In this document: positions 23,491 through 60,856 of the stretch, in pieces | How positions within the stretch are numbered: the first letter of the stretch is position 1 | How the letters are laid out: every line of letters begins with the position of its first letter | Assembly (NCBI GenBank): GCA_900764695.1 | Contig: CAAFOY010000039.1 | Location: forward strand, 1-64,000 | DNA: 64,000 bases | Direction of reading: 5' to 3' | From: Lachnospiraceae bacterium | GTDB taxonomy: Bacteria > Bacillota_A > Clostridia > Lachnospirales > Lachnospiraceae | Notes under the pieces: generated by a model | The model's database searches: none | What the model was told of the DNA's origin: nothing | Seen by the model: the letters and a program-made list of their open reading frames with translations, nothing else | Made by a program: the position numbers and the translations under genes

Positions 23491-25086
23491 ATGGCAGAAG
23501 GAAAAGATTTGTTGCAGGTTTTGTGGAGCGGAGCAGATGTATTAAGAGGTAAGATGGATGCAAATGAATACAAAACTTATTTATTAGGATTGGTATTTTA
23601 TAAGTATTTATCAGATTCATATTTATCAAAAGTATATGATTTATTAAACGATGAAACACCAGATGATTTAGAAGAAGCACAGGAAGTTTATGATGATGTA
23701 ATGAATAGTGAAGATGCCGAAGAACTATTGGCAGAATTGAAAGAATCATTACGTTATACATTGGACCCTGATATGACATATGTAAGCATATTGAAAGATG
23801 CTAAAAACAATTCTTTCAACAGAGAAAAATTACAGTCAGCATTTAATAGAATTCAGGAATCAGACGAATTATTTAATGGATTATTTGCAGATGTTGATTT
23901 GTATTCAAACAGGCTTGGAACCGGAGACCAAAAACAGAGTGCAACAATAGCAGAAGTGATAAAAGTGTTAGATGGTGCAGATTTAATACATACAGAAGGC
24001 GATGTGCTAGGAAATGCATATGAATACTTAATAGGACAGTTTGCTTCTGAAACAGGAAAAAAGGCAGGGGAATTCTATACTCCACATGGTCCGGCACAGA
24101 TACTATGTCGAATTGCAATGACAGGACAGGAAGATAAAAAAGGATTACAGGTATATGACCCTTGTATGGGTTCAGGATCATTAATGCTGAGCTGCAAAAA
24201 TTATGCAAAAGAACCAGATTATATAAAATACTATGGACAGGAACTTATGCCATCAACTTATAATTTGGCAAGAATGAATATGTTTTTGCATGGAGTTTTG
24301 CCGGAAAATCAGCACTTAAGAAATGCTGATACATTAGATGCAGACTGGCCAACTGATGAAGAAACAGAATTTGATGTAGTTACAATGAATCCACCATATT
24401 CTGCAAAATGGTCTGCAGCAGAAGGATTTAAACAAGATGAAAGATTTATGGATTATGGTGGAAAGCTTGCACCAAAATCAAAAGCAGATTATGCATTCTT
24501 ATTACACGGATTTTATCATTTAAAACAGACAGGAACAATGGCGATTGTTTTACCACATGGAGTTTTATTTAGAGGAGCAGCAGAAGGAACAATAAGAGAA
24601 ACACTTTTGAAAAATGGTTCTATATATGCGGTAATTGGCTTGCCATCAAATATGTTTTATAATACTTCAATTCCAACATGTATTGTAGTATTGAAAAAGC
24701 ATCGTGATGGACGAGATGTGTTGTTTATAGATGCATCAAATTTGTATGAAAAAGAGAAAAAGCAGAATGTTATGAAAGAAGAACATATTGATCGTGTTCT
24801 TGAATTATATAATAACAGAGAAAGTGTAGAGAAAGAAGCATACCTTGCATCTTATGAAGACATTGTGAAAAATGATTACAACTTGAATATACCACGATAT
24901 GTAGATACTTCAGAAGAAGAACCAGAGATTGATTTAAAAGCACTTACGCTGAGAATGAGAGATACAGATAAAGAAATAAAAGAGGGTAATAATATGCTGT
25001 TAAGTATGTTAAAAGGCCTAAATTTTGACAGTGATGAAACTAGAGAATCAGTAGAAGAATTCATAAAAGTCTTAGAGGAGGTGTAA
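23491..25086 (+). CDS. hsdM: type I restriction-modification methyltransferase subunit
   Basis: This 531-residue subunit methylates adenine in the target sequence as part of the HsdM2S complex. It has an N-terminal HsdM bundle (about 1-140), then the SAM-binding motif VYDPCMGSGSLML (about 225-237) and the catalytic NPPY (about 305-308). A ribosome binding site ATAGGAGG lies 7 nt before the ATG. hsdS begins 3 nt after its stop, so subunit synthesis is coupled. Full length, with no disruption seen. Confidence 0.96.
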   Translation: MAEGKDLLQVLWSGADVLRGKMDANEYKTYLLGLVFYKYLSDSYLSKVYDLLNDETPDDLEEAQEVYDDVMNSEDAEELLAELKESLRYTLDPDMTYVSILKDAKNNSFNREKLQSAFNRIQESDELFNGLFADVDLYSNRLGTGDQKQSATIAEVIKVLDGADLIHTEGDVLGNAYEYLIGQFASETGKKAGEFYTPHGPAQILCRIAMTGQEDKKGLQVYDPCMGSGSLMLSCKNYAKEPDYIKYYGQELMPSTYNLARMNMFLHGVLPENQHLRNADTLDADWPTDEETEFDVVTMNPPYSAKWSAAEGFKQDERFMDYGGKLAPKSKADYAFLLHGFYHLKQTGTMAIVLPHGVLFRGAAEGTIRETLLKNGSIYAVIGLPSNMFYNTSIPTCIVVLKKHRDGRDVLFIDASNLYEKEKKQNVMKEEHIDRVLELYNNRESVEKEAYLASYEDIVKNDYNLNIPRYVDTSEEEPEIDLKALTLRMRDTDKEIKEGNNMLLSMLKGLNFDSDETRESVEEFIKVLEEV

Positions 25087-25089
25087 AAT

Positions 25090-26370
25090 ATGGCAGATAT
25101 ACCAAAAATAAGATTTAAAGGATTTACTGAACCTTGGGAACAGCGTAAGTTGGGGGAGATTTGTGATTCGTTTGAATATGGATTGAATGCTGCGGCTACT
25201 GATTATGATGGTGAGAACAAATATATTCGCATTACTGACATAGATGACAATTCTCATGAGTTTTTGCAGAATAATGTTACATCTCCTGACATTGATTTTA
25301 GTGGTGCAGAAAATTATAAACTTAAGCAGGGGGATATTTTGTTTGCTCGAACTGGAGCGAGTGTTGGAAAAACCTATATTTACGAGGAATCCGACGGGTT
25401 AGTGTACTATGCTGGTTTCTTGATTCGAGGACGAGTTAAGAATGAATATTCTCCTGAATTTGTCTTTCAAAATACACTCACGGCGGATTATGAAAGGTTT
25501 ATTAGAATTACATCGCAACGTTCCGGACAGCCGGGTGTTAATGCTCAGGAATATGCAAGTTATCAAATTGCTACTCCTGTATTAGAAGAACAGCAGCAAA
25601 TCGGAGCCTATTTTTCCACCCTCGACCACCTCATCACTCTTCATCAACGTAAGTGTGATGACACAAAAGAATTAAAAAAATATATGCTTCAAAAAATGTT
25701 TCCGAAAAATGGAGAAAAATTTCCAGAAATCCGTTTTAAAGGATTCACTGAAGCTTGGGAACAGTGTAAGTTTGCTGCAGTCTTTGATGGATTACCGAAT
25801 AATACATTTTCAAGGGCAGAATTGAACTATGAAAGCGGTACAGTAAAGAATGTTCATTACGGCGATGTGCTGATAAAGTTTGGAGATTATATTAATGCTT
25901 CCGAAACAGAGTTGCCGTATATATCCGATGATGCAAAAGCCGATAAGTTTAAGAACTCTTTTTTGCAAGATGGGGACATTATAATTGCAGATACCGCAGA
26001 GGATGAGGCTGTTGGCAAATGTACAGAAATACAGGGCTCTGAAGGATTAAAACTTCTGTCAGGACTTCATACGATAGCTTGTCGCCCGAAGGAAAAATAT
26101 GGTCCGATGTTCTTGGGATACTATATCAATTCTCCTGCATATCACAACCAGTTAAAACCATTAATGCAGGGAATAAAAGTTACTTCAATTTCAAAGTCAG
26201 CTCTTCAAGATACGGATATGATTATGCCACAAGATATAGAAGAACAAGAAAAAATCGGAGAATATTTTTCTAACCTCGACCACCTCATCACTCTTCATCA
26301 ACGTAAGTGTGATACACTAAAAGAGTTAAAAAAATATATGCTACAAAATATGTTTCCAAAGAAAGGATAA
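25090..26370 (+). CDS. hsdS: type I restriction-modification specificity subunit, expressed copy
   Basis: It has 426 residues with the two-TRD plan: target recognition domain 1 (about 15-170), a helical spacer (about 175-215), domain 2 (about 220-385) and a C-terminal helix. Each half opens with a WEQ(R/C)K(L/F) segment and closes with LDHLITLHQRKCD, and these segments are encoded by the repeats used for inversion. The gene therefore sits at the expression site of a shuffling system. The silent cassette 4 kb away carries two different TRDs. The DNA sequence recognised is not predictable from what I see. Confidence 0.95.
   Translation: MADIPKIRFKGFTEPWEQRKLGEICDSFEYGLNAAATDYDGENKYIRITDIDDNSHEFLQNNVTSPDIDFSGAENYKLKQGDILFARTGASVGKTYIYEESDGLVYYAGFLIRGRVKNEYSPEFVFQNTLTADYERFIRITSQRSGQPGVNAQEYASYQIATPVLEEQQQIGAYFSTLDHLITLHQRKCDDTKELKKYMLQKMFPKNGEKFPEIRFKGFTEAWEQCKFAAVFDGLPNNTFSRAELNYESGTVKNVHYGDVLIKFGDYINASETELPYISDDAKADKFKNSFLQDGDIIIADTAEDEAVGKCTEIQGSEGLKLLSGLHTIACRPKEKYGPMFLGYYINSPAYHNQLKPLMQGIKVTSISKSALQDTDMIMPQDIEEQEKIGEYFSNLDHLITLHQRKCDTLKELKKYMLQNMFPKKG
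25133..25155 (+). repeat. hsdS recombination repeat A, copy at the start of TRD1
   Basis: This 23-bp sequence begins CTTGGGAACAGCGTAAGTT. It is exactly inverted at 30874-30896, and its first 19 bp are inverted at 31427-31445. A variant with one internal change lies at 25754-25773 before TRD2. These positions let each recognition domain be exchanged by inversion. Confidence 0.9.
25620..25659 (+). repeat. hsdS recombination repeat B, copy after TRD1
   Basis: This 40-bp segment, starting CCTCGACCACCTCATCACTC, is identical in direct orientation to 26274-26313. It encodes the LDHLITLHQRKCD helix that ends each half of HsdS. Confidence 0.9.
26272..26313 (+). repeat. hsdS recombination repeat B, copy after TRD2
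   Basis: Its first 28 bp, starting AACCTCGACCACCTCATCAC, are exactly inverted at 30378-30405 in the silent cassette. This is the longest hsdS inverted match in the 3' part of the gene. Recombination here against repeat A or B copies would swap whole domains. Confidence 0.9.
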
Positions 26371-26376
26371 GGGATT

Positions 26377-29328
26377 ATGGCAGAATTAGAAGCAATAATT
26401 GAGAGAAGACTAATAGACCAACTATGTAGTGGTGAATCACAATGGACGTATAGACCGGATATCAGAAATGAAGAGCAATTATGGAAGAACTTTAAGTATA
26501 TTTTAGAGCAGAACAATAAAGCAAAACTAAATGATACACCATTAAGTGAAAGTGAGTTTGCAAAGGTAAAGAATGATTTATCACATGCTTCATTTTATGA
26601 TGCAGGGAAATGGCTAGTTGGCGAAAATGGAAAAGTTTATGTTCATGTACAAAGAGGCAATGAAACATTACATTTAGTCGTTATGAATAATGAGCACATT
26701 GCAGGCGGGACAAGTGTATATGAAGTTATAAATCAATATCAGGCGTTCAAAACAGAAGAAAATGACGAAAGGGACAGAAGATTTGACGTCACATTGCTTA
26801 TTAATGGAATTCCTATGATTCATATTGAACTGAAAAATAAAGAACATTCATATATGGACGGATATAGGCAAATAAAGAAATATATAGCAGAAGGTAAATT
26901 TAGAGGTCTCTTTTCAAATATTCAAATGTTTGTTGTAAGTAATGCGGTAGATACAAAATATTTTTCGGCAGCAAGAGATACGGAATTAAATAAAAAATTT
27001 ATTACAGGATGGATAGATGAAAAGAACTATCCTGTATGTGATTATATGGATTTTGCAAAGGCAGTATTAAAAATACCGGAAGCGCATGAAATGGTTACAA
27101 AATATACAGTTTTGGATAATGACAAAAAGAAATTGTTAATTCTGAGACCATATCAGATTCATGCAATTAAGGCAATGCGAAATGCATCAAAACAAGGAAA
27201 ATCAGGATTTATTTGGCATACAACAGGTTCAGGAAAGACAATGACATCATATAAGGCTACAAGAAACCTGCTAATGGATATACCATCTATAGAAAAAACA
27301 GTTTTTTTGATTGATAGAAAAGATTTAGATATGCAGACAAAGATGGCATTTCAGTCTTATGCAGATAACGATACAATTGATGTAGATGATACAGATTATG
27401 TCGATACTTTAATTAAAAGAATGACTGATGGTAATAGGCAAATGATTGTTACAACAAGACAAAAAATGCAGACAATGATTAGCAATCGTTTGAAAGAAGG
27501 AACGAAAGAATATCAGATTATAAAGAATTTAAGAGTTGCTTTTGTAGTAGATGAATGTCATAGAGCAGTAACTCCTGAAACAAAAAGAAAATTGGAACAG
27601 TTCTTTAATAATTCTTTGTGGTATGGATTTACCGGAACACCTATTTTTGAGCAGAATAAATATGAACAAAAGGGAGACTTACCACAAACTACAGAACAGC
27701 TGTATGGAAAGTGTTTGCATAGTTATACGATAAAGGAAGCTATCCATGATGAGGCAGTCTTAGGCTTTATGGTAGAAAATCTTGGACCAAAGAATAAGGA
27801 TGTAGATGAATCTGCCTATTTATCCGAAAAGCATATGAGAAATGTTTTAGACGTTATATTGAATCAATCTGCCACAAAATTGGGAATGCAGAATGGTAAA
27901 GGAAGAACATATGAGGGAATATTAACAGTTAAATCCATTTCAATTGCACAAAAATATTATGAATTGTTAAAGAAAATAAAAAATGGACAAGATGAGTTAA
28001 AGATAAGTGAAGATATTCAGAAAGCGTTACCGGATTTTCCTAAGTTTGCAATTACATACTCAATTTCAGAAAATGAAGAAGCATCTACTGTTAATCAGGA
28101 TAAGATGAAAGAATCTTTAGAAGATTACAATGAAATGTTTGGAACAAATTACAAGCTTGAAGCGATAAATGCCTACAATAGTAACTTAAATGACAGATTA
28201 GCAAGAAAGGAAAAGAAATATCTTGAAAGAAGTCAGCAACTTGATTTGGTAATTGTTGTTGATAGATTGTTGACGGGATTTGATGCACCTTGTTTATCTA
28301 CATTGTTTATGGATAGACCACCAATGACTCCACAGAATATAATTCAGGCGTTTTCACGAACTAATCGATTGTTTGATAGTAATAAGCAGTATGGGCAAAT
28401 TGTAACATTCCAATCGCCTAAAGAGTTTAAAGATGCTATAAACAATGCATTGACATTATATTCTAGAGGTGGTGATGGAAAACCAGTGGCTGAGGATTGG
28501 GAAACTGTACTTGATAATTTCAATATATCTGTTAAGGCTATTCATGCTTTAGCAGAAACACCCGAAGAGATATCAGCATTGTCAAGACAACAAAAGAAAT
28601 CGTTTGTTCATCTGTTTAGAGCATTAGACCATGATTTTGCACATCTTAAGGCGTTTTCAAATTACAATGAAGATATATTGAAAGAGTTAGAATTTTCACA
28701 GGAAGAATATGAAAACTATGCAGCAATGTATAACAATGTAATGGAGGAACTTAAGAAACCTTCAGATGACCCGGATGGAGATGGACCTGAATTAGATGAA
28801 TATGATTTGATGGCTTATAGCAAGTTGCGTATAGATTTTGAATATATTATTGAATTGCTTCAAGGGGTTGTTGAATCTTTAGACCAGACAAAAGATGATT
28901 TTAAAGAATCTGATTTTGAATATAATATTAATGTATTAAGAGGTATTATCGATGATTATTATAAGGTTAATCCACAAATAAGTGAGCTACTAAAGATAAT
29001 TATCGAAGATATCGAAAATGATAAGGAAAAGTATATAGGTCAGGACATATCCGTTATATTTAATCAGATGAAGTATAAAATTATCGATGATGCTATAAGG
29101 AAATTTGCTCAAAAATGGTATTTAGAAGATGAGGATGTTAAGTTTGAAGCATATAATTATAGAGATGGAATGCTTGCAAACGAAAACGTCCTAAAAGAAA
29201 AAACGGATTATAAAACTTATAAAGAAGAATCAGAAGAACCTATGCCAAAATACAAGTTTAGAAAAACTATGGTAGAAGAGTTTAAAAATGATTTAATGGA
29301 AGAAATAAGCCCATTGATTAATGAATAA
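26377..29328 (+). CDS. hsdR: type I restriction enzyme motor/endonuclease subunit
   Basis: This 983-residue subunit has an N-terminal PD-(D/E)xK nuclease part (RFDVTLLINGIPMIHIELKN, about 133-160) and two helicase domains with Walker A TTGSGKT, DECHR (motif II), GFTGTP (motif III) and FSRTNRLF (motif VI). A helical C-terminal region docks to HsdM. It translocates and cuts unmodified DNA in complex with HsdM and HsdS. It starts 6 nt after hsdS and ends before a strong terminator. Length and motifs are intact, so restriction should be active. Confidence 0.96.
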   Translation: MAELEAIIERRLIDQLCSGESQWTYRPDIRNEEQLWKNFKYILEQNNKAKLNDTPLSESEFAKVKNDLSHASFYDAGKWLVGENGKVYVHVQRGNETLHLVVMNNEHIAGGTSVYEVINQYQAFKTEENDERDRRFDVTLLINGIPMIHIELKNKEHSYMDGYRQIKKYIAEGKFRGLFSNIQMFVVSNAVDTKYFSAARDTELNKKFITGWIDEKNYPVCDYMDFAKAVLKIPEAHEMVTKYTVLDNDKKKLLILRPYQIHAIKAMRNASKQGKSGFIWHTTGSGKTMTSYKATRNLLMDIPSIEKTVFLIDRKDLDMQTKMAFQSYADNDTIDVDDTDYVDTLIKRMTDGNRQMIVTTRQKMQTMISNRLKEGTKEYQIIKNLRVAFVVDECHRAVTPETKRKLEQFFNNSLWYGFTGTPIFEQNKYEQKGDLPQTTEQLYGKCLHSYTIKEAIHDEAVLGFMVENLGPKNKDVDESAYLSEKHMRNVLDVILNQSATKLGMQNGKGRTYEGILTVKSISIAQKYYELLKKIKNGQDELKISEDIQKALPDFPKFAITYSISENEEASTVNQDKMKESLEDYNEMFGTNYKLEAINAYNSNLNDRLARKEKKYLERSQQLDLVIVVDRLLTGFDAPCLSTLFMDRPPMTPQNIIQAFSRTNRLFDSNKQYGQIVTFQSPKEFKDAINNALTLYSRGGDGKPVAEDWETVLDNFNISVKAIHALAETPEEISALSRQQKKSFVHLFRALDHDFAHLKAFSNYNEDILKELEFSQEEYENYAAMYNNVMEELKKPSDDPDGDGPELDEYDLMAYSKLRIDFEYIIELLQGVVESLDQTKDDFKESDFEYNINVLRGIIDDYYKVNPQISELLKIIIEDIENDKEKYIGQDISVIFNQMKYKIIDDAIRKFAQKWYLEDEDVKFEAYNYRDGMLANENVLKEKTDYKTYKEESEEPMPKYKFRKTMVEEFKNDLMEEISPLINE

Positions 29329-29346
29329 TATAATTATCAAGAAAGT

Positions 29347-29384
29347 AAAAGCTTGGAATTTTTTGAGTTTCCAAGCTTTTATTT
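29347..29384. terminator. terminator between hsdR and the recombinase
   Basis: AAAAGCTTGGAA (29347-29358) pairs with TTCCAAGCTTTT (29369-29380). The flanking A and T runs let it act in both directions, for hsdR and for the convergent recombinase. Confidence 0.85.
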
Positions 29385-29390
29385 ATTAAA

Positions 29391-29402
29391 ATCGGCGTGC
29401 AT
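29391..29402. repeat. 12-bp inverted repeat flanking the recombinase, left arm
   Basis: ATCGGCGTGCAT is the exact reverse complement of 30369-30380. The two arms bracket the recombinase gene. The right arm runs into hsdS repeat B in the silent cassette. Confidence 0.7.
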
Positions 29403-29409
29403 ATTTTAT

Positions 29410-30339
29410 TTAAGAAAGGTTAGATAATGACCTCATAATAATATCAATATCCTTACTTTCAAGTTCCTGTATAATATGGAGATATGTTTTTTGAGTTGTA
29501 GTCATACTAGCGTGCCCCAATCTCCTTGCAACACTGGCAATTGAAACTCCGGCAAATAGCAAAAGTGATGCATGCGTATGTCGTAATCCGTGAATTGAAA
29601 TTACTGGAATACCAGTACTAATACAATGTCTTGCTAAAATATCATTTAGCGTAGAGTTGTATACTTTTTCTTTAACGAAAATTGGTTCGTTTTCAGGTAA
29701 ATCTTTTATAAGTGAAGAAAACTGCATTACTGTCTGCCAATCAAGTTGGATTTTTCTCATAGAAGAAAGATTTTTTGTAGGAAGAAAACCACCGTTACCT
29801 TTGTAATTCCATGTCTTAGAAACAGTTAACATTTGATGAGACAAGTCAAAATCTTTAGGGGTTAATGCTAATGCTTCTGAAAATCTCATTCCTGTCTTAG
29901 CTACTAAAAGTATAAACCAATCCCAATTTATATTCTGTGATAAATCTAAAGACTCAATTAACTTATGTAGTTCAAATTGGTTAAGATACTTTTGCTTTTT
30001 TGCTCTAGGTTCTTTGCCTTTAATGATAGCTTTCCTTGTAGGGTCGCGGGAAATTAACCCCTCATCAACAGCATCTAATATTGCACATTTAATATGATGA
30101 TGAAAATCCATAGTTGTTTGTCGTTCATGGTTTTGTGCATAATCGTTTAGAAGTTGCTGATAAGATATTCTGTCAATATCCCCAACAGTAAGAGTCGGAA
30201 TTAATTTTACTAACCATTGATGTGCCATCTTATATTTGTTCATTGTTATAGGTCTTATAGCACCTTCCTTGTAAACAGTAATCCATTTTTTGTAGTAATC
30301 ACAGAATAAAGTGTCACTACTGACTGTCGTTGTGTTCAT
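29410..30339 (-). CDS. tyrosine recombinase, probable HsdS invertase
   Basis: This 309-residue site-specific recombinase has an N-terminal SAM-like core-binding domain (about 8-105) and a catalytic domain with R152 (TGMRFSEAL), H250 and R253 (HGLRH), H276 (RLGHAS) and nucleophile Y286 (KTYLHI). All key residues are present, so it should be active. It lies between hsdR and the silent hsdS cassette, the standard place for the enzyme that inverts hsdS segments. The arm-binding N-terminal domain of phage integrases is absent or short, which fits an invertase rather than a prophage integrase. Confidence 0.93.
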   Translation of the reverse strand: MNTTTVSSDTLFCDYYKKWITVYKEGAIRPITMNKYKMAHQWLVKLIPTLTVGDIDRISYQQLLNDYAQNHERQTTMDFHHHIKCAILDAVDEGLISRDPTRKAIIKGKEPRAKKQKYLNQFELHKLIESLDLSQNINWDWFILLVAKTGMRFSEALALTPKDFDLSHQMLTVSKTWNYKGNGGFLPTKNLSSMRKIQLDWQTVMQFSSLIKDLPENEPIFVKEKVYNSTLNDILARHCISTGIPVISIHGLRHTHASLLLFAGVSIASVARRLGHASMTTTQKTYLHIIQELESKDIDIIMRSLSNLS

Positions 30340-30368
30340 TTGTAAGTCCTCCTTTTCATTAGTCTATA

Positions 30369-30380
30369 ATGCACGCCGAT
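30369..30380. repeat. 12-bp inverted repeat flanking the recombinase, right arm
   Basis: ATGCACGCCGAT is the reverse complement of 29391-29402. It lies at the boundary of the silent cassette and changes two bases of the hsdS repeat (CC in place of TT). Confidence 0.7.
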
Positions 30381-30405
30381 GAAGAGTGATGAGGTGGTCG
30401 AGGTT
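30378..30405 (-). repeat. hsdS recombination repeat B, inverted copy
   Basis: These 28 bp are identical, inverted, to 26272-26299. Together with the repeat A copies they define the invertible segments between about 25.1 and 31.4 kb. Confidence 0.9.
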
Positions 30406-30873
30406 GTTTAAATATGCAGAAATAATACGCTGTTCTTTCTTTGATGAAGGCATTGATATTGTAACCTCATCAAAAAATGCTTTTGTATCAACATTCAATA
30501 ATCCATGATTTCTGGCACCTTCTGCGCATATCATTGTAATATCGGAATACCATTTAAGAGTATCAAAAAAGCATTCCAAATAATCTGATTCCACATCGTC
30601 TGATGTTATCCCGAAACATATATATAATGTCGATAAACATCCCTGTTCATAGGCATTTAGTCGTTTTATTGAACCATAATCAAATCCTTTAGAATAACTT
30701 TTGTTATACGCAAATTCCCCTTTTTTCAAAAGGTAATAATTTGACATGTCTTTTGCTGCGACAACCTTATTAAAAAAATCTCTTTGATCAATCAAGCCAT
30801 ATTGAGATGCTATTGTCAGTGGCAAATCGGATTCGTTATTTTTATTTTTTCTGGTGACTCTTTCACATAGGTG

Positions 30874-30896
30874 CCCCAACTTACGCTGTTCCCAAG
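30874..30896 (-). repeat. hsdS recombination repeat A, inverted copy at the second silent TRD
   Basis: These 23 bp are identical, inverted, to 25133-25155. A degenerate repeat B lies next to it at about 30928-30962. Confidence 0.9.
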
Positions 30897-31426
30897 TTAT
30901 TAATTTATTATATATTATAAAATACTTACGCTGATGAAGAGTGATAAGGTTATCAAGGTTATCTAATACTGATGATATTTTCTTCTGTTCTTCCATTCTT
31001 GGAATCAAAAATGCGAACGCGCCAACCTCTGTTGTGGATATACTTGCTTGATTCACCGCAGGTTTTGCTATGATTCTAAACCAATCTCTGGTTGATTCCT
31101 TTTTGAGCAAATGAAGTAAAAAATGGGAATCTATTTCTTCATGTCTTGAACGTATATTTAGCAGGTTCATTCCATGATAAATTTCACCTAAATCCGCCGT
31201 ATAGAGGGCTGTATTAGCAATATAAGGTAGACTATTTATATGGCTAAAAAGTATATCCCCATCCACAAGTCTATAATTCTCATTTATCTCATCTGAGGAA
31301 CCGAGTTTTTCAGTGTTTATGACACCGGAAGATATGCTTTCTATTCTTGTAATCTTATATCTATGGTCTCGACTTCCATCAGCTTTGTATGTATAACCAT
31401 TCTTAATACATGCTGTTACATCCGAT

Positions 31427-31445
31427 AACTTACGCTGTTCCCAAG
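31427..31445 (-). repeat. hsdS recombination repeat A, inverted copy at the head of the silent cassette
   Basis: These 19 bp are identical, inverted, to 25133-25151. They mark the outer limit of the invertible region. Confidence 0.88.
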
Positions 31446-31542
31446 TATTACATATAAAAAAAGAGAATATAATGGTGTAATTTAATAAAAAACAAATTGA
31501 AAAAGATTATATTTTATAGGTCGATAAAGTAAAAAATAACGG

Positions 31543-31626
31543 AATCGAGTCCTGAAAAAGGGACAGTGAATATGAGAAAATAGAAGCATAAAAGGAAAAA
31601 GAAAAAAATTGCAGCTATAAAGGAGG
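31543..31626 (+). promoter_or_regulatory. duplicated 5' leader, copy 2 (before the acidic EF-hand gene)
   Basis: This 84-nt segment matches 22879-22960 with only a handful of changes and a two-base insertion, including the GTCC/GGAC hairpin and the terminal GCAGCTATAAAGGAGG. The two copies are in the same orientation and 8.66 kb apart, just outside the restriction-modification locus. Confidence 0.7.
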
Positions 31627-31632
31627 CAAATT

Positions 31633-31872
31633 ATGGGATTTTGGAACGGAAAAGCGGATGGACCTTTAGATAAGATGTTTGACTTTAACAGAGACGGAAA
31701 ATTAAATGCTTGGGAAAGAGCAATGGAACTGGGGTTATTAATGGATGATGAAGATGACTACCAGGATGAGGATGATGAATTTGATGATGACGACGATGAA
31801 GAAGATGAAGAAAGTGAAGAGCTGATGGAAGAAGATTGGGATTCGGATTACGATGAAAGTGATGAGTGGTAG
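31633..31872 (+). CDS. small acidic protein with a single EF-hand-like loop
   Basis: This 79-residue protein lacks a signal peptide. Residues 1-34 (MGFWNGKADGPLDKMFDFNR, then DGKLNAWERAME) carry a Ca2+-loop pattern D-x-N-x-D-G-x-L-x-x-x-E. The remaining 45 residues are almost entirely Asp and Glu. The same N-terminal segment opens the protein at 32254. The acidic tail might bind cations or basic proteins, but no function is known to me. A ribosome binding site AAGGAGG belongs to the duplicated leader. Confidence 0.75.
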   Translation: MGFWNGKADGPLDKMFDFNRDGKLNAWERAMELGLLMDDEDDYQDEDDEFDDDDDEEDEESEELMEEDWDSDYDESDEW

Positions 31873-31891
31873 AAGTAATTATAAAAATAAA

Positions 31892-31917
31892 TTGACATAA
31901 CGTTATATATATATAAT
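31892..31917 (+). promoter_or_regulatory. promoter directly upstream of the Cas12a-like mini-array
   Basis: TTGACA lies at 31892-31897 and TATAAT at 31912-31917 (14-nt spacing), or TAATAA at 31914-31919 (16-nt spacing). Transcription would start at about the first base of the repeat region. This suggests the array is expressed as a short RNA. Confidence 0.55.
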
Positions 31918-31918
31918 A

Positions 31919-32019
31919 AGATTGAGTTAATAATTTCTACTAATATGTAGATTGAATGTAAATACCATAAGAGATTAACTGTTTGAATAACTTATAATTT
32001 CTACTAAAATATGGTAGAT
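31919..32019 (+). CRISPR. orphan degenerate type V-A (Cas12a-like) repeat-spacer-repeat
   Basis: Repeat 1 ends AATTTCTAC-TAATAT-GTAGAT (31932-31952). Repeat 2 runs 31981-32019, starts GTTTGAATAACTTATAATTT and ends in the same TCTAC/GTAGA stem with a longer loop. The 28-nt spacer (31953-31980) has the usual Cas12a spacer length. Known Cas12a repeats end AATTTCTACT-n-GTAGAT with a 5-bp stem and a 4-5 nt loop; here the loops are 6 and 9 nt, so the repeats are degenerate. No cas gene is visible in 64 kb. Sequence after repeat 2 shows no third full repeat. It may be a relic, or a crRNA-like guide that uses a Cas12a encoded elsewhere. Confidence 0.72.
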
Positions 32020-32064
32020 AGAACCTTGTAGTTTCGAATAAATATAAAAATTGGTTGCAAAAGT

Positions 32065-32108
32065 AACTGCTAGTTTGCAAAAGTAGTAGCATAGAAAAAC
32101 TAGCAGTT
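32065..32108. repeat. 12-bp perfect inverted repeat downstream of the mini-array
   Basis: AACTGCTAGTTT (32065-32076) is the exact reverse complement of 32097-32108, with a 20-nt loop. The element TTGCAAAAGTA is directly repeated at 32055 and 32075. There is no T-run after the stem, so it may be part of the small RNA or a protein-binding site rather than a classic terminator. The rest of the gene-free stretch 31873-32253 is AT-rich with nothing else I can support. Confidence 0.55.
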
Positions 32109-32253
32109 TAAATTGCAATTAAATACTTTAAATATTCCCCTACAAGTCCCATCTATTGGACACCAAATATGAGATAATTACCTCAATAAAACAAAAACAT
32201 TCTTTTACCACACAATTTGTAAAATATTTATAACACATGATTGGAGGTTAATT

Positions 32254-33111
32254 ATGGGAATTTGGAATGGAAAGGCAGATGGACCGTTAGACAAGTTTTT
32301 TGATTTTAATAAAGATGGTAAATTAAATACATTTGAAAGAGGTATGGAATACCGCTTTATGAACGAAACAAGAAATCAGAATAGCCAGAGAAAACAGTAT
32401 GGAGATTATGAAGATAGTAGTTCCAGATATCATAACAATGAGGAAAACAATGGCAGGACCTACAGCAAGAATAATGATAAGAGTAATAGCAACAACAATA
32501 AAGCTGACAACAATAATGACAAGAGTAATAGCAACAACAATAAAACTGACAACAATGATGATAACCATGGCAAATACAATCGTGGAGGTGATTCAACCAT
32601 GAAAAACAACAAATCAACTTCAGTTATAAAATTTATCATATTAATAGTAGCCATATTTGGATTAATATACGGCTTTAAATCAATTTACACTAACATAAAA
32701 ACATGCGCAGAGCCCGGTTGTAATTTTAATAAAGAAAAAGGATTTGATTATTGCTATCGTCATATGAAAGAGCATGGGCTTGATTATGATTTTTCTGATT
32801 TGGAAAATGATACAACAGAAAATGATGAAACCTACGAAGAAGAGACAACCCGTTATGACATCATAAATAATACTCAGAAACCAACTAGCAACAGCGACAC
32901 ATATGAAAGAGAGACAACAAGAAAAACTTATAATTATTCAAATAGCTCTAAAAAACATTATTATTATGATGACTCATACGACGATGGATATGATGATGTA
33001 ATATCAGATGACGACTATGATTATGACCGCTATGATGAAGATGATGATTATGCAGATGGTGTTGATGATGCAATAGATGAAATGATGGAAGAGGGAGAAG
33101 GCGATTGGTAG
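32254..33111 (+). CDS. EF-hand-headed, low-complexity single-pass membrane protein
   Basis: This 285-residue protein begins with the same segment as the gene at 31633, including DFNKDGKLNTFE. An Asn/Asp/Lys-rich repeat (DKSNSNNNKTDNN, about 70-100) follows, then one transmembrane helix (about 124-143). Next is a short Cys-His cluster (CAEPGCNFNKEKGFDYCYRH, about 151-170) that could bind zinc, and a Tyr/Asp-rich acidic tail. I do not know this family. The ribosome binding site is TTGGAGG. The low-complexity coding DNA is itself repetitive (AACAACAATAA). Confidence 0.75.
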   Translation: MGIWNGKADGPLDKFFDFNKDGKLNTFERGMEYRFMNETRNQNSQRKQYGDYEDSSSRYHNNEENNGRTYSKNNDKSNSNNNKADNNNDKSNSNNNKTDNNDDNHGKYNRGGDSTMKNNKSTSVIKFIILIVAIFGLIYGFKSIYTNIKTCAEPGCNFNKEKGFDYCYRHMKEHGLDYDFSDLENDTTENDETYEEETTRYDIINNTQKPTSNSDTYERETTRKTYNYSNSSKKHYYYDDSYDDGYDDVISDDDYDYDRYDEDDDYADGVDDAIDEMMEEGEGDW

Positions 33112-33283
33112 ATTTGAAGAAAGTGCTTAAGTTTTATTGAATTAAATCCCAAGTTTACCCGCTTAATATAGAAACACAAAGTGCTACAACAACACAAAAA
33201 ATGTCATAAAATTTTGCCATAAAAATTCCATAAAATCTTTGCAAATAAATTTCAAATCTATTCCCTCAACACCCATTTTATGC

Positions 33284-33385
33284 TATAATACTAGTAAGAA
33301 ATCGAGACAGGCTAGGACGGTGGCTTGCTCATATGGAAACTCAGGATTGCATTGACGAAGGTATGTAATTCTGGGTTTCTTTTTT
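33284..33385 (+). promoter_or_regulatory. MATE leader: promoter, short structured RNA and intrinsic terminator
   Basis: TATAAT at 33284-33289 would start a transcript near 33296. The transcript carries a candidate hairpin (GGCTAGGACGGTGGCT) and a 17-bp stem (33336-33352 with 33363-33379, three G-U pairs) followed by T6. The terminator lies about 80 nt before the MATE start codon, an arrangement typical of riboswitch or attenuator control. The aptamer is not one I recognise. The rest of 33112-33467 is AT-rich, apart from a GGTCGCAA/TTGTGACC hairpin just before the start codon. Confidence 0.5.
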
Positions 33386-33467
33386 GACAAAATTTATTAA
33401 AAAATTACGGAAAATGGAGTAAGGTCGCAACTTAAATAGTAAATAATTGTGACCGTAAGTTTTGCAT

Positions 33468-34820
33468 ATGGATTTGACGCAGGGAAATATAACAGGAAAA
33501 TTAATTAAATTTGCATTGCCACTTATGTTAGGAAATATACTCCAGCAATGCTATAATATCGCAGACACATTGATTGTAGGAAGATTTGTAGGAAAAGATG
33601 CTCTTGCCGCGGTAGGGGCATCTTATACATTGATGATTTTCTTAACATCAATAATATTAGGGTTAAGTATGGGAGCCGGTGCTTTTATATCTATGGAATT
33701 TGGAAAGAAAGATTATGACCGGATGAAAAATGGAATCGTGATTGCATTTGCGTTAATAGGTGGCATCACTTTATTAATAACTTTTGCTTTTTTTGCAGGA
33801 ATTAATAATATAATTAGATTTTTACAGATTCCTAGCGAAATAACAAGACTTACAAAACAATATCTGATTATTATTGGAATTGGAATAATTGCAACATTTT
33901 TTTACAATTTTTTTGGAAATGGGCTTAGAGCAATCGGAAATTCAGTAATGCCACTGGTATTCCTTGGAGTTTCAGCGGTTCTTAATATTGTGCTGGACCT
34001 TATTTTTATAGTTAAATTCAATCTTGGAGTTGCCGGAACAGCTGAAGCTACCGTGATTTCACAGTATGTTTCAGGAATGGGAATAACCATCTATGCACTT
34101 TTAAAATCTACACATTTTAGAATTAAGCTCAAGCACTTAAAATTTGATATGAATATTGTTAAGGAACTGGCAAATCTTTCTATATTAACAGCTTTGCAAC
34201 AGTCGGTTATGAATTTTGGAATCTTACTTGTGCAGGGATTGGTAAATAGTTTCGGAACGGTAGTTATGGCGGCATTTGCGGCAGCAGTAAAAATAGATAC
34301 TTTAGCATATTCACCGGTACAGGATTTTGGAAATGCAGTGTCGACTTTTGTTGCACAAAATTATGGGGCAGGTAAACAAAGCAGAATAAAGGAAGGCTGG
34401 AGACAGTCTATGATTGCAGCTTCAATTTTTTGCATTTCAGTAAGTGCAGTTGTATTTATATTTGCAGAAAAATTTATGGGACTTTTTGTGACTAATGGTG
34501 ACGAAATCATAAAAGTGGGAGCAGGTTATCTTAGAATAGAAGGAACATTTTATATAGGAATTGGGATTTTATTTTTGCTGTATGGATTTTACAGAGCAGT
34601 TGGAAAGCCGGAAATGTCATTGGTTCTTACAATCATTTCGTTAGGTACAAGAGTTGTGCTGGCGTATGCATTATCTTCAATTCCTCAGATTGGAGTTATT
34701 GGAATTTGGGCTTCGGTTCCTATCGGATGGGCTTTGGCTGATATGACAGGGCTTTTATATATGAAAAAATTACCACTGTTAAAAAGTAGATTTAGAAAGA
34801 AATATGACTTGCATATATGA
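33468..34820 (+). CDS. MATE-family multidrug/cation exporter
   Basis: It has 450 residues from ATG 33468; a TTG two codons earlier is possible, and neither has a strong ribosome binding site. Twelve hydrophobic segments in two six-helix halves are visible, opening with GNITGKLIKFALPLMLGNIL and including the conserved GNGLRAIGNSVMP region in the first half. MATE proteins export drugs or metabolites in exchange for sodium or protons. The upstream terminator leader suggests ligand-controlled expression. It is similar in plan to, but not the same as, the gene at 38393. Confidence 0.9.
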   Translation: MDLTQGNITGKLIKFALPLMLGNILQQCYNIADTLIVGRFVGKDALAAVGASYTLMIFLTSIILGLSMGAGAFISMEFGKKDYDRMKNGIVIAFALIGGITLLITFAFFAGINNIIRFLQIPSEITRLTKQYLIIIGIGIIATFFYNFFGNGLRAIGNSVMPLVFLGVSAVLNIVLDLIFIVKFNLGVAGTAEATVISQYVSGMGITIYALLKSTHFRIKLKHLKFDMNIVKELANLSILTALQQSVMNFGILLVQGLVNSFGTVVMAAFAAAVKIDTLAYSPVQDFGNAVSTFVAQNYGAGKQSRIKEGWRQSMIAASIFCISVSAVVFIFAEKFMGLFVTNGDEIIKVGAGYLRIEGTFYIGIGILFLLYGFYRAVGKPEMSLVLTIISLGTRVVLAYALSSIPQIGVIGIWASVPIGWALADMTGLLYMKKLPLLKSRFRKKYDLHI

Positions 34821-60838: not shown

Positions 60839-60856
60839 CCAACACAATTGCGAATA

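Follow-up and report, generated by a model that had tools for sequence, protein, structure and literature searches.

The described systems that come closest to the locus reported here are CreR, the CreTA modules and the Racrs. CreR are crRNA-like regulators of cas operons of types I and V-A (PMC12737573). The CreTA modules work with Cascade and the promoter of a neighbouring toxin, and the first of their repeats is the more degenerate one (PMC9458426). Racrs (RNA anti-CRISPRs) are solitary repeats on viruses or plasmids, and three type V-A Racr candidates inhibited a system of Moraxella bovoculi (PMC10651486).

We analysed a stretch of 64,000 nt from a Lachnospiraceae bacterium (contig CAAFOY010000039.1; hereafter the window), in which an earlier note had pointed out an orphan Cas12a-type mini-array. 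Judging from its sequence, the unit may be a degenerate mini-array of type V-A that lies at an ectopic site and belongs to the crRNA-like guides, a reading that we put forward tentatively and rate somewhat below an even chance.

Like CreR, the unit places a guide behind a degenerate V-A repeat that is not part of an array; unlike CreR, it has two repeats rather than one and no adjacent cas12a, no terminator was found for it, and no target was found within 64 kb. With CreA it shares an arrangement in which two degenerate repeats enclose a single spacer and the first repeat has diverged further in its 5' half, but no matching seed with a PAM lies beside it and no toxin was recognised. It resembles the Racrs in being a repeat mimic away from cas genes, and type V-A Racrs exist; it differs from them in having two repeats and a spacer and no recognisable virus or plasmid around it. 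The region 31880-32060 gave no match to 50,697 phage records, and among plasmids only five records matched it, with E = 0.04 and covering 23-33%. The handle letters, the repeat starting with GTTT and the 28-nt spacer fit the type V-A arrays of the family genomes G016, G195 and G316, whereas the widened loops, the eroded first repeat, the single complete spacer and the lack of visible cas genes set the unit apart from such arrays.

Structure of the unit

The 381-bp gap between two paralogous genes holds both repeats, here called R1 and R2, with the guide g1 between them and the stretch g2 after the second (Table 1). The two repeats carry identical AATTTCTACT and GTAGAT, which in a Cas12a crRNA make up the arms of the handle, and the V-A arrays read in relatives show the same letters. 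The pattern AATTTCTACT-N(3-9)-GTAGAT matched twice in the 64-kb window, the two matches being 64 nt apart, and not once in 100 dinucleotide shuffles. In R1 the handle AATTTCTACT-AATAT-GTAGAT (31932-31952) is intact and the 5' half (31920-31931) is diverged and shortened; R2 alone keeps a GTTT-type 5' half, and the loop of its handle (31996-32019) is widened. The loops between TCTAC and GTAGA measure 6 nt in R1 and 9 nt in R2. Folding predictions give R2 alone a 7-bp stem and a loop of 5 nt, but for an R1-R2 transcript they pair the R2 5' strand elsewhere.

Table 1. Coordinates of the unit and of its neighbours in the window
Feature	Position	Strand	Remark
Upstream neighbour gene	31633..31872	+	Small acidic protein, tandem paralogue of 32254-33111
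Possible non-consensus promoter	31892..31917	+	TTGACA 31892-31897, TATAAT 31912-31917
R1, degenerate type V-A repeat	31920..31952	+	Pattern match and alignment to V-A repeats
g1, spacer/guide, 28 nt	31953..31980	+	No site in window with a Y-T-Y-N PAM and a seed of 8 nt or more
R2, full-length degenerate type V-A repeat	31981..32019	+	Best window match to the G016 V-A repeat
g2, stretch after R2	32020..32050	+	First 11 nt, AGAACCTTGTA, match the type II-A repeat of 5/23 genus genomes
Solo end of IS30-family element	32055..32124	+	Contains the 12-bp inverted repeat; outside the array
Downstream neighbour gene	32254..33111	+	Paralogue of the 31633-31872 protein

The 5' half of R2, GTTTGAATAACTTAT, aligns with the 5' halves of the V-A repeats of G016 (GTTTAAGTAACCTAAAT) and G195 (GTTTAGTAACCTATAAA); its match to the G016 form was equalled by 0.00045 of random 15-mers from the window, and the score of the R1 5' half by 0.011 of random 12-mers. 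When the G016 V-A repeat was aligned to both strands of the window with a lenient gap cost, R2 (41.5) and R1 (36.5) were the two best places, the next scoring 32.0, and none of 3000 shuffled versions of that repeat scored as well at the locus. With the G195 repeat R2 came first by a small margin (35.0 vs 34.5) and the locus was third under a stiffer gap cost, under which the G316 repeat also found better places elsewhere. From the exact handles and these alignments, the V-A ancestry of R1 and R2 is well supported, and chance is not a serious explanation. A search of Rfam at gathering thresholds returned no match.

A possible origin of R1 and R2 from worn type II repeats, suggested by a look-alike repeat in G410, was rejected: all four type II repeats of the genus that were tested were placed better elsewhere in the window, with the caveat that, against shuffled repeats at the locus, the II-C repeat of G001 (5/3000) and the II-A repeat of G410 (26/3000) also score high.

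Most of what the earlier note had said about the repeats is upheld. The two repeats sharing AATTTCTACT and the TCTAC/GTAGA stem are the only such matches in the 64 kb; their type V-A identity agrees with the ranking obtained with the G016 repeat; and their description as degenerate, with 6- and 9-nt loops, fits the differing 5' halves and loops. The 28 nt assigned to the spacer also stand if R2 starts at the GTTT of 31981, a boundary supported by the comparison with V-A repeats. This length is within about 26-30 nt, and the repeats that enclose the spacer are not identical, differing in the 5' half and in the loop.

Between R1 and R2 all 16 handle letters are identical (32/32 positions kept over both repeats), against 9 of 12 aligned positions and a 3-nt gap in the 5' halves; the loops differ in length. 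The difference between handle and 5' half gave a Fisher p of 0.067 without the gap, which is not significant, and of 0.030 with the gap counted as one event. We regard it as no more than a hint that the handle was kept, and a biased one, because it was by its intact handles that the unit was noticed.

Surroundings of the unit

A promoter of its own had been proposed for the unit. The TTGACA box is present, but no -10 element follows it at 16-18 bp: TATAAT, which the eroded 5' half of R1 adjoins, is 14 bp away, and a promoter scan with 16-18 bp spacing listed no pair at TTGACA. The promoter is thus unproven. The perfect 12-bp inverted repeat reported downstream is likewise real; it belongs, however, to a 70-bp IS30-family end and not to the array. 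As a terminator made for the unit it was rejected, and no terminator-like site was found.

This 70-bp segment starts 35 nt after R2. It shares 97% identity with one end of an IS30-family element of G289, which is the nearest relative among the genomes compared (85% DNA identity in a gene that we take from its sequence to be prfC). Two G289 copies share 1651 identical bases that end at the segment, and the protein of the G289 element passes the NCBIfam IS30 cut-off (119 vs 80 bits). No transposase match was found for the end in the window. Of the six copies of the segment listed for G289, two (L186 and L187) are likewise solo 70-bp ends, and no transposase match lies within about 2 kb to either side of them; they may represent a small non-autonomous element. 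Such solo ends are therefore not unusual. The IS30-family end may have truncated the unit.

The two flanking genes share 107 nt of 80% identical DNA at their 5' ends, and the upstream one contains what we presume to be an EF-hand-like motif. Neither protein matched a Pfam, NCBIfam or PADLOC family. The cluster of the neighbour protein (P0001) represents 34 contigs, and P0002, a 99% relative of P0001, bears the name Eubacterium sp. AF17-7, by which the host is a Eubacterium. A search of genome contigs with the alignment of the neighbour protein produced 157 stretches, none of which was confirmed, and the search of viral contigs with a neighbour protein gave nothing useful. In agreement with the earlier statement that no cas gene is near, no Cas model was among the PADLOC matches listed for 40 window proteins, a set to which neither the incomplete ORF that starts at 60848 and runs off the window nor the short and antisense ORFs belonged, and in which four restriction or helicase proteins were represented by the best 25 of 37-91 matches each.

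The window also holds a type I restriction-modification locus (23491-31266): hsdM, hsdS and hsdR come first and then, in reversed orientation, a tyrosine recombinase and another hsdS piece. Inverted repeats of 34-45 nt, 84-88% complementary, occur between the hsdS copies, and the locus looks like a phase-variable specificity switch.

Cas12a and V-A units in relatives

The cas12a model TIGR04330 matched none of the 23 genomes of the genus, among which the window's own genome is not included, and none of 14 control genomes. In the family 7 of 397 genomes had a match over the cut-off and two more had one below it. Cas12a is thus rare and patchily distributed in the family, and a copy could be present in the unit's own strain. 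Among the outcomes that the earlier note had said would count against it, a lack of cas12a was observed in the 23 genus genomes. A protein search with seven Cas12a sequences was passed by 2797 proteins, and a Cas9 search by 3964; among the 120 listed for each, most of them unnamed, none was named as belonging to this Eubacterium. Cas12a2 shares the handle of Cas12a.

The exact handle pattern was found in 23 of the 397 family genomes, of which 7 have cas12a over the cut-off. In 14 of the 16 others the pattern lies in a stop-free frame of at least 100 codons (exactly 100, near a contig start, in G142). Non-coding matches are hence found in 2 of 390 genomes without cas12a over the cut-off, namely G016 and G294. 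G294, a genome without a cas12a match, has a solitary V-A handle in non-coding DNA (L146, about 1500). G016, also without a cas12a match, has two cas-less V-A places. One is an array with three or more repeats, of which the last is worn (L188), and the other a two-repeat unit in which the first repeat keeps the handle and the second only the 5' half (L189). As the G016 places show, there are orphan V-A pieces in the family, and these can be mere remnants.

None of the genomes searched yielded a relative with a homologous unit. The matches to TTTCTACT-N-GTAGAT in 9 of the 23 genus genomes were set aside, as their flanks, by eye, read like protein-coding sequence. Our literature search, PMC10794557 included, found no account of a V-A unit in E. 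ventriosum. A solitary canonical V-A repeat, followed by what looks by eye like an inverted repeat and a T-run, was seen on an IMG/VR contig (L003, 8425-8445) and is a candidate RNA anti-CRISPR.

Two of the seven cas12a loci of the family have a single degenerate repeat with the exact handle pattern just upstream. The guide of the G195 unit (L131, about 1290-1382) has a 15-nt seed match with a TTTA PAM 92 nt before the cas12a start, and that of the G049 unit (L136, about 1372-1474) a 9-nt seed match with a TTTA PAM 6 nt before the called cas12a start. By their sequence both units fit CreR as described in PMC12737573. The repeat of the G195 unit lacks a full 5' half and stands beside TATAAT, and the same is true of the first repeat in the window.

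Search for targets of the guides

Neither g1 nor g2 has a site in the window with a seed of at least 8 nt and a Y-T-Y-N PAM, and no target of either is therefore recognised there; shuffled versions of g1 gave a mean of 0.81 such matches. In the neighbourhood where the promoter of a toxin might be targeted (31000-33600) the best seeds were only 5 nt for g1 and 4 nt for g2. Within the genus the g1 seed was found at 6 places in 5 of 23 genomes, which is not above the reversed control pattern (8 places). A 9-nt g1 seed inside cas9 of G420 was judged a chance match, only 6 nt being present at the same place in G419 and G422. In viral contigs, searched for exact 18-mers only, g1 had hits in three contigs, which were rejected (none behind TTTV, 19-21 of 28 letters agreeing overall), and g2 had none.

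The g2 seed behind TTTV (TTTVAGAACCTTG) is present in 7 of the 23 genus genomes. Five of them (G414, G416, G419, G420 and G422) have tandem matches with a period of about 66 bp; single matches occur in G411, in G005 and at one further place in G414, and the reversed control pattern gave 18 matches. The tandem matches are CRISPR repeats, GTTTGAGAACCTTGTAAATTATGAAGAGTGTAAAAC and variants, adjoining a Cas9 of about 1350 aa (split over two contigs in G416) and three further ORFs, which were assigned to Cas1, Cas2 and Csn2, and the system hence to type II-A, from ORF size and order only. The 11 nt of AGAACCTTGTA directly follow the handle of R2 in g2 and directly follow TTTG in the 36-nt II-A repeat. 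Among 128,000 pseudo-guide starts in the window g2 is the sole one with an 11-nt seed match behind TTTV in these repeats; 6 starts reach 10 nt and 7 reach 9 nt. Over the remaining 20 nt of g2, 10-11 positions agree with the repeat, as in 1.3-4.0% of random 20-mers.

It is conceivable, but in our estimate unlikely, that the R2 handle and g2 form a Cas12a guide aimed at another CRISPR system. An ancestral spacer would have been taken from a repeat of a Cas9 array, its seed being kept and the rest lost, and Cas12a would bind every repeat of the rival type II-A array without cutting and thereby silence it. The g2 match must be read with the limit that this idea was formed after the tandem matches had been seen. 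In G289, the nearest relative compared, the Cas9 is a different one (about 1107 aa) and the site is missing; G410 and G411 carry a different repeat, which likewise lacks it; and in G421 a one-letter variant of the repeat breaks the seed. Reading the stretch after R2 as a whole worn type II repeat was rejected: the plain alignment score was reached by 326 of 5000 shuffles, and with another gap cost by 88 of 3000, so that only the register of seed and PAM is unusual. For g1 there was no convincing counterpart to this match. With the few search phrases used, no paper appeared to describe a CRISPR effector aimed at the repeats of another CRISPR system.

Regulator, remnant and other explanations

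If the unit is a regulator, a short RNA would be made from just upstream of R1, and a Cas12a encoded at another place in the genome, or at a locus that varies between strains, would cut this RNA at the handles. Because the guide would match its target only through the seed, the complex would bind without cutting and block transcription, the mode of action reported for CreR and CreA. Such a target would sit outside the window. We put this reading first on two grounds: the layout matches that of the G195 unit, and g2 has its 11-nt seed match. The V-A identity of the repeats, the hint of handle identity, the CreR-like units of the family and the degeneracy of the first repeat in CreTA modules also count for it. 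Against it count the absence of cas12a from all 23 genus genomes, the lack of a target in the window, a g1 seed no better than its control, the lack of a relative with the unit, the poor promoter spacing and the pairing of the R2 5' strand elsewhere in the predicted fold. On present evidence regulator and relic are about equally likely. As a relic, the unit would be the last piece of a type V-A locus lost from this lineage, or else an array fragment that was scattered; it would have neither effector nor function and would be wearing down next to an IS30 end. The missing cas12a in 23 of 23 genus genomes, the cas-less V-A pieces of G016 (L188 and L189), the solo IS30 end 35 nt after R2 and the failure to find a target in the window all speak for a dead remnant, which is less easily reconciled with the keeping of AATTTCTACT and GTAGAT in both handles (32/32) though loops and 5' halves changed, and with the fact that the eroded 5' half belongs to the first repeat and not to the trailing one.

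That the unit is a solo immune array engaged in ordinary interference, with a Cas12a encoded elsewhere in the same genome, seems improbable. The 28-nt spacer between two recognisable repeats is of normal length, and the patchiness of cas12a (7/397 over the cut-off) would allow a strain-specific enzyme; the repeats are degenerate, however, no cas12a was found among the 23 genus genomes, and exact 18-mers of g1 occur in three viral contigs, none behind TTTV, and those of g2 in none. Still less probable is an RNA anti-CRISPR, that is, a solitary repeat unit on a mobile element that would occupy Cas12a. An end of a mobile element does adjoin the unit, and type V-A candidates of this kind inhibited a Moraxella bovoculi system (PMC10651486), but there are two repeats here, the sole mobile piece recognised nearby is the 70-bp IS end, and the database searches gave no phage match and only the five weak plasmid records. 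The least credible explanation is that two AT-rich hairpins resemble V-A handles by chance. The pattern does arise randomly, as seen from the stop-free frames of at least 100 codons that contain it in 14 of 16 genomes with a match and without cas12a over the cut-off. The shuffle test, in which none of 100 shuffles gave a match where the window has two at a distance of 64 nt, and the ranking of the G016 repeat largely refute this explanation, and it also agrees poorly with the rarity of non-coding matches without cas12a (2/390 genomes, those of G016 lying in V-A repeat pieces) and with the likeness of the R2 5' half to V-A repeats, equalled by 0.00045 of random 15-mers.

Conclusions

The two CreR-like units upstream of cas12a in relatives are useful in themselves as bacterial type V-A examples. 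An active unit in the window would represent a regulator resembling CreR and CreA that is remote from cas loci and acts in trans, in a genus in which no Cas12a was found; if the unit is a relic, it would show how V-A units linger after the loss of the effector. Should the g2 match be meaningful, a CRISPR effector would here be directed at the repeats of a second CRISPR system, which would link the two directly and in a testable way.
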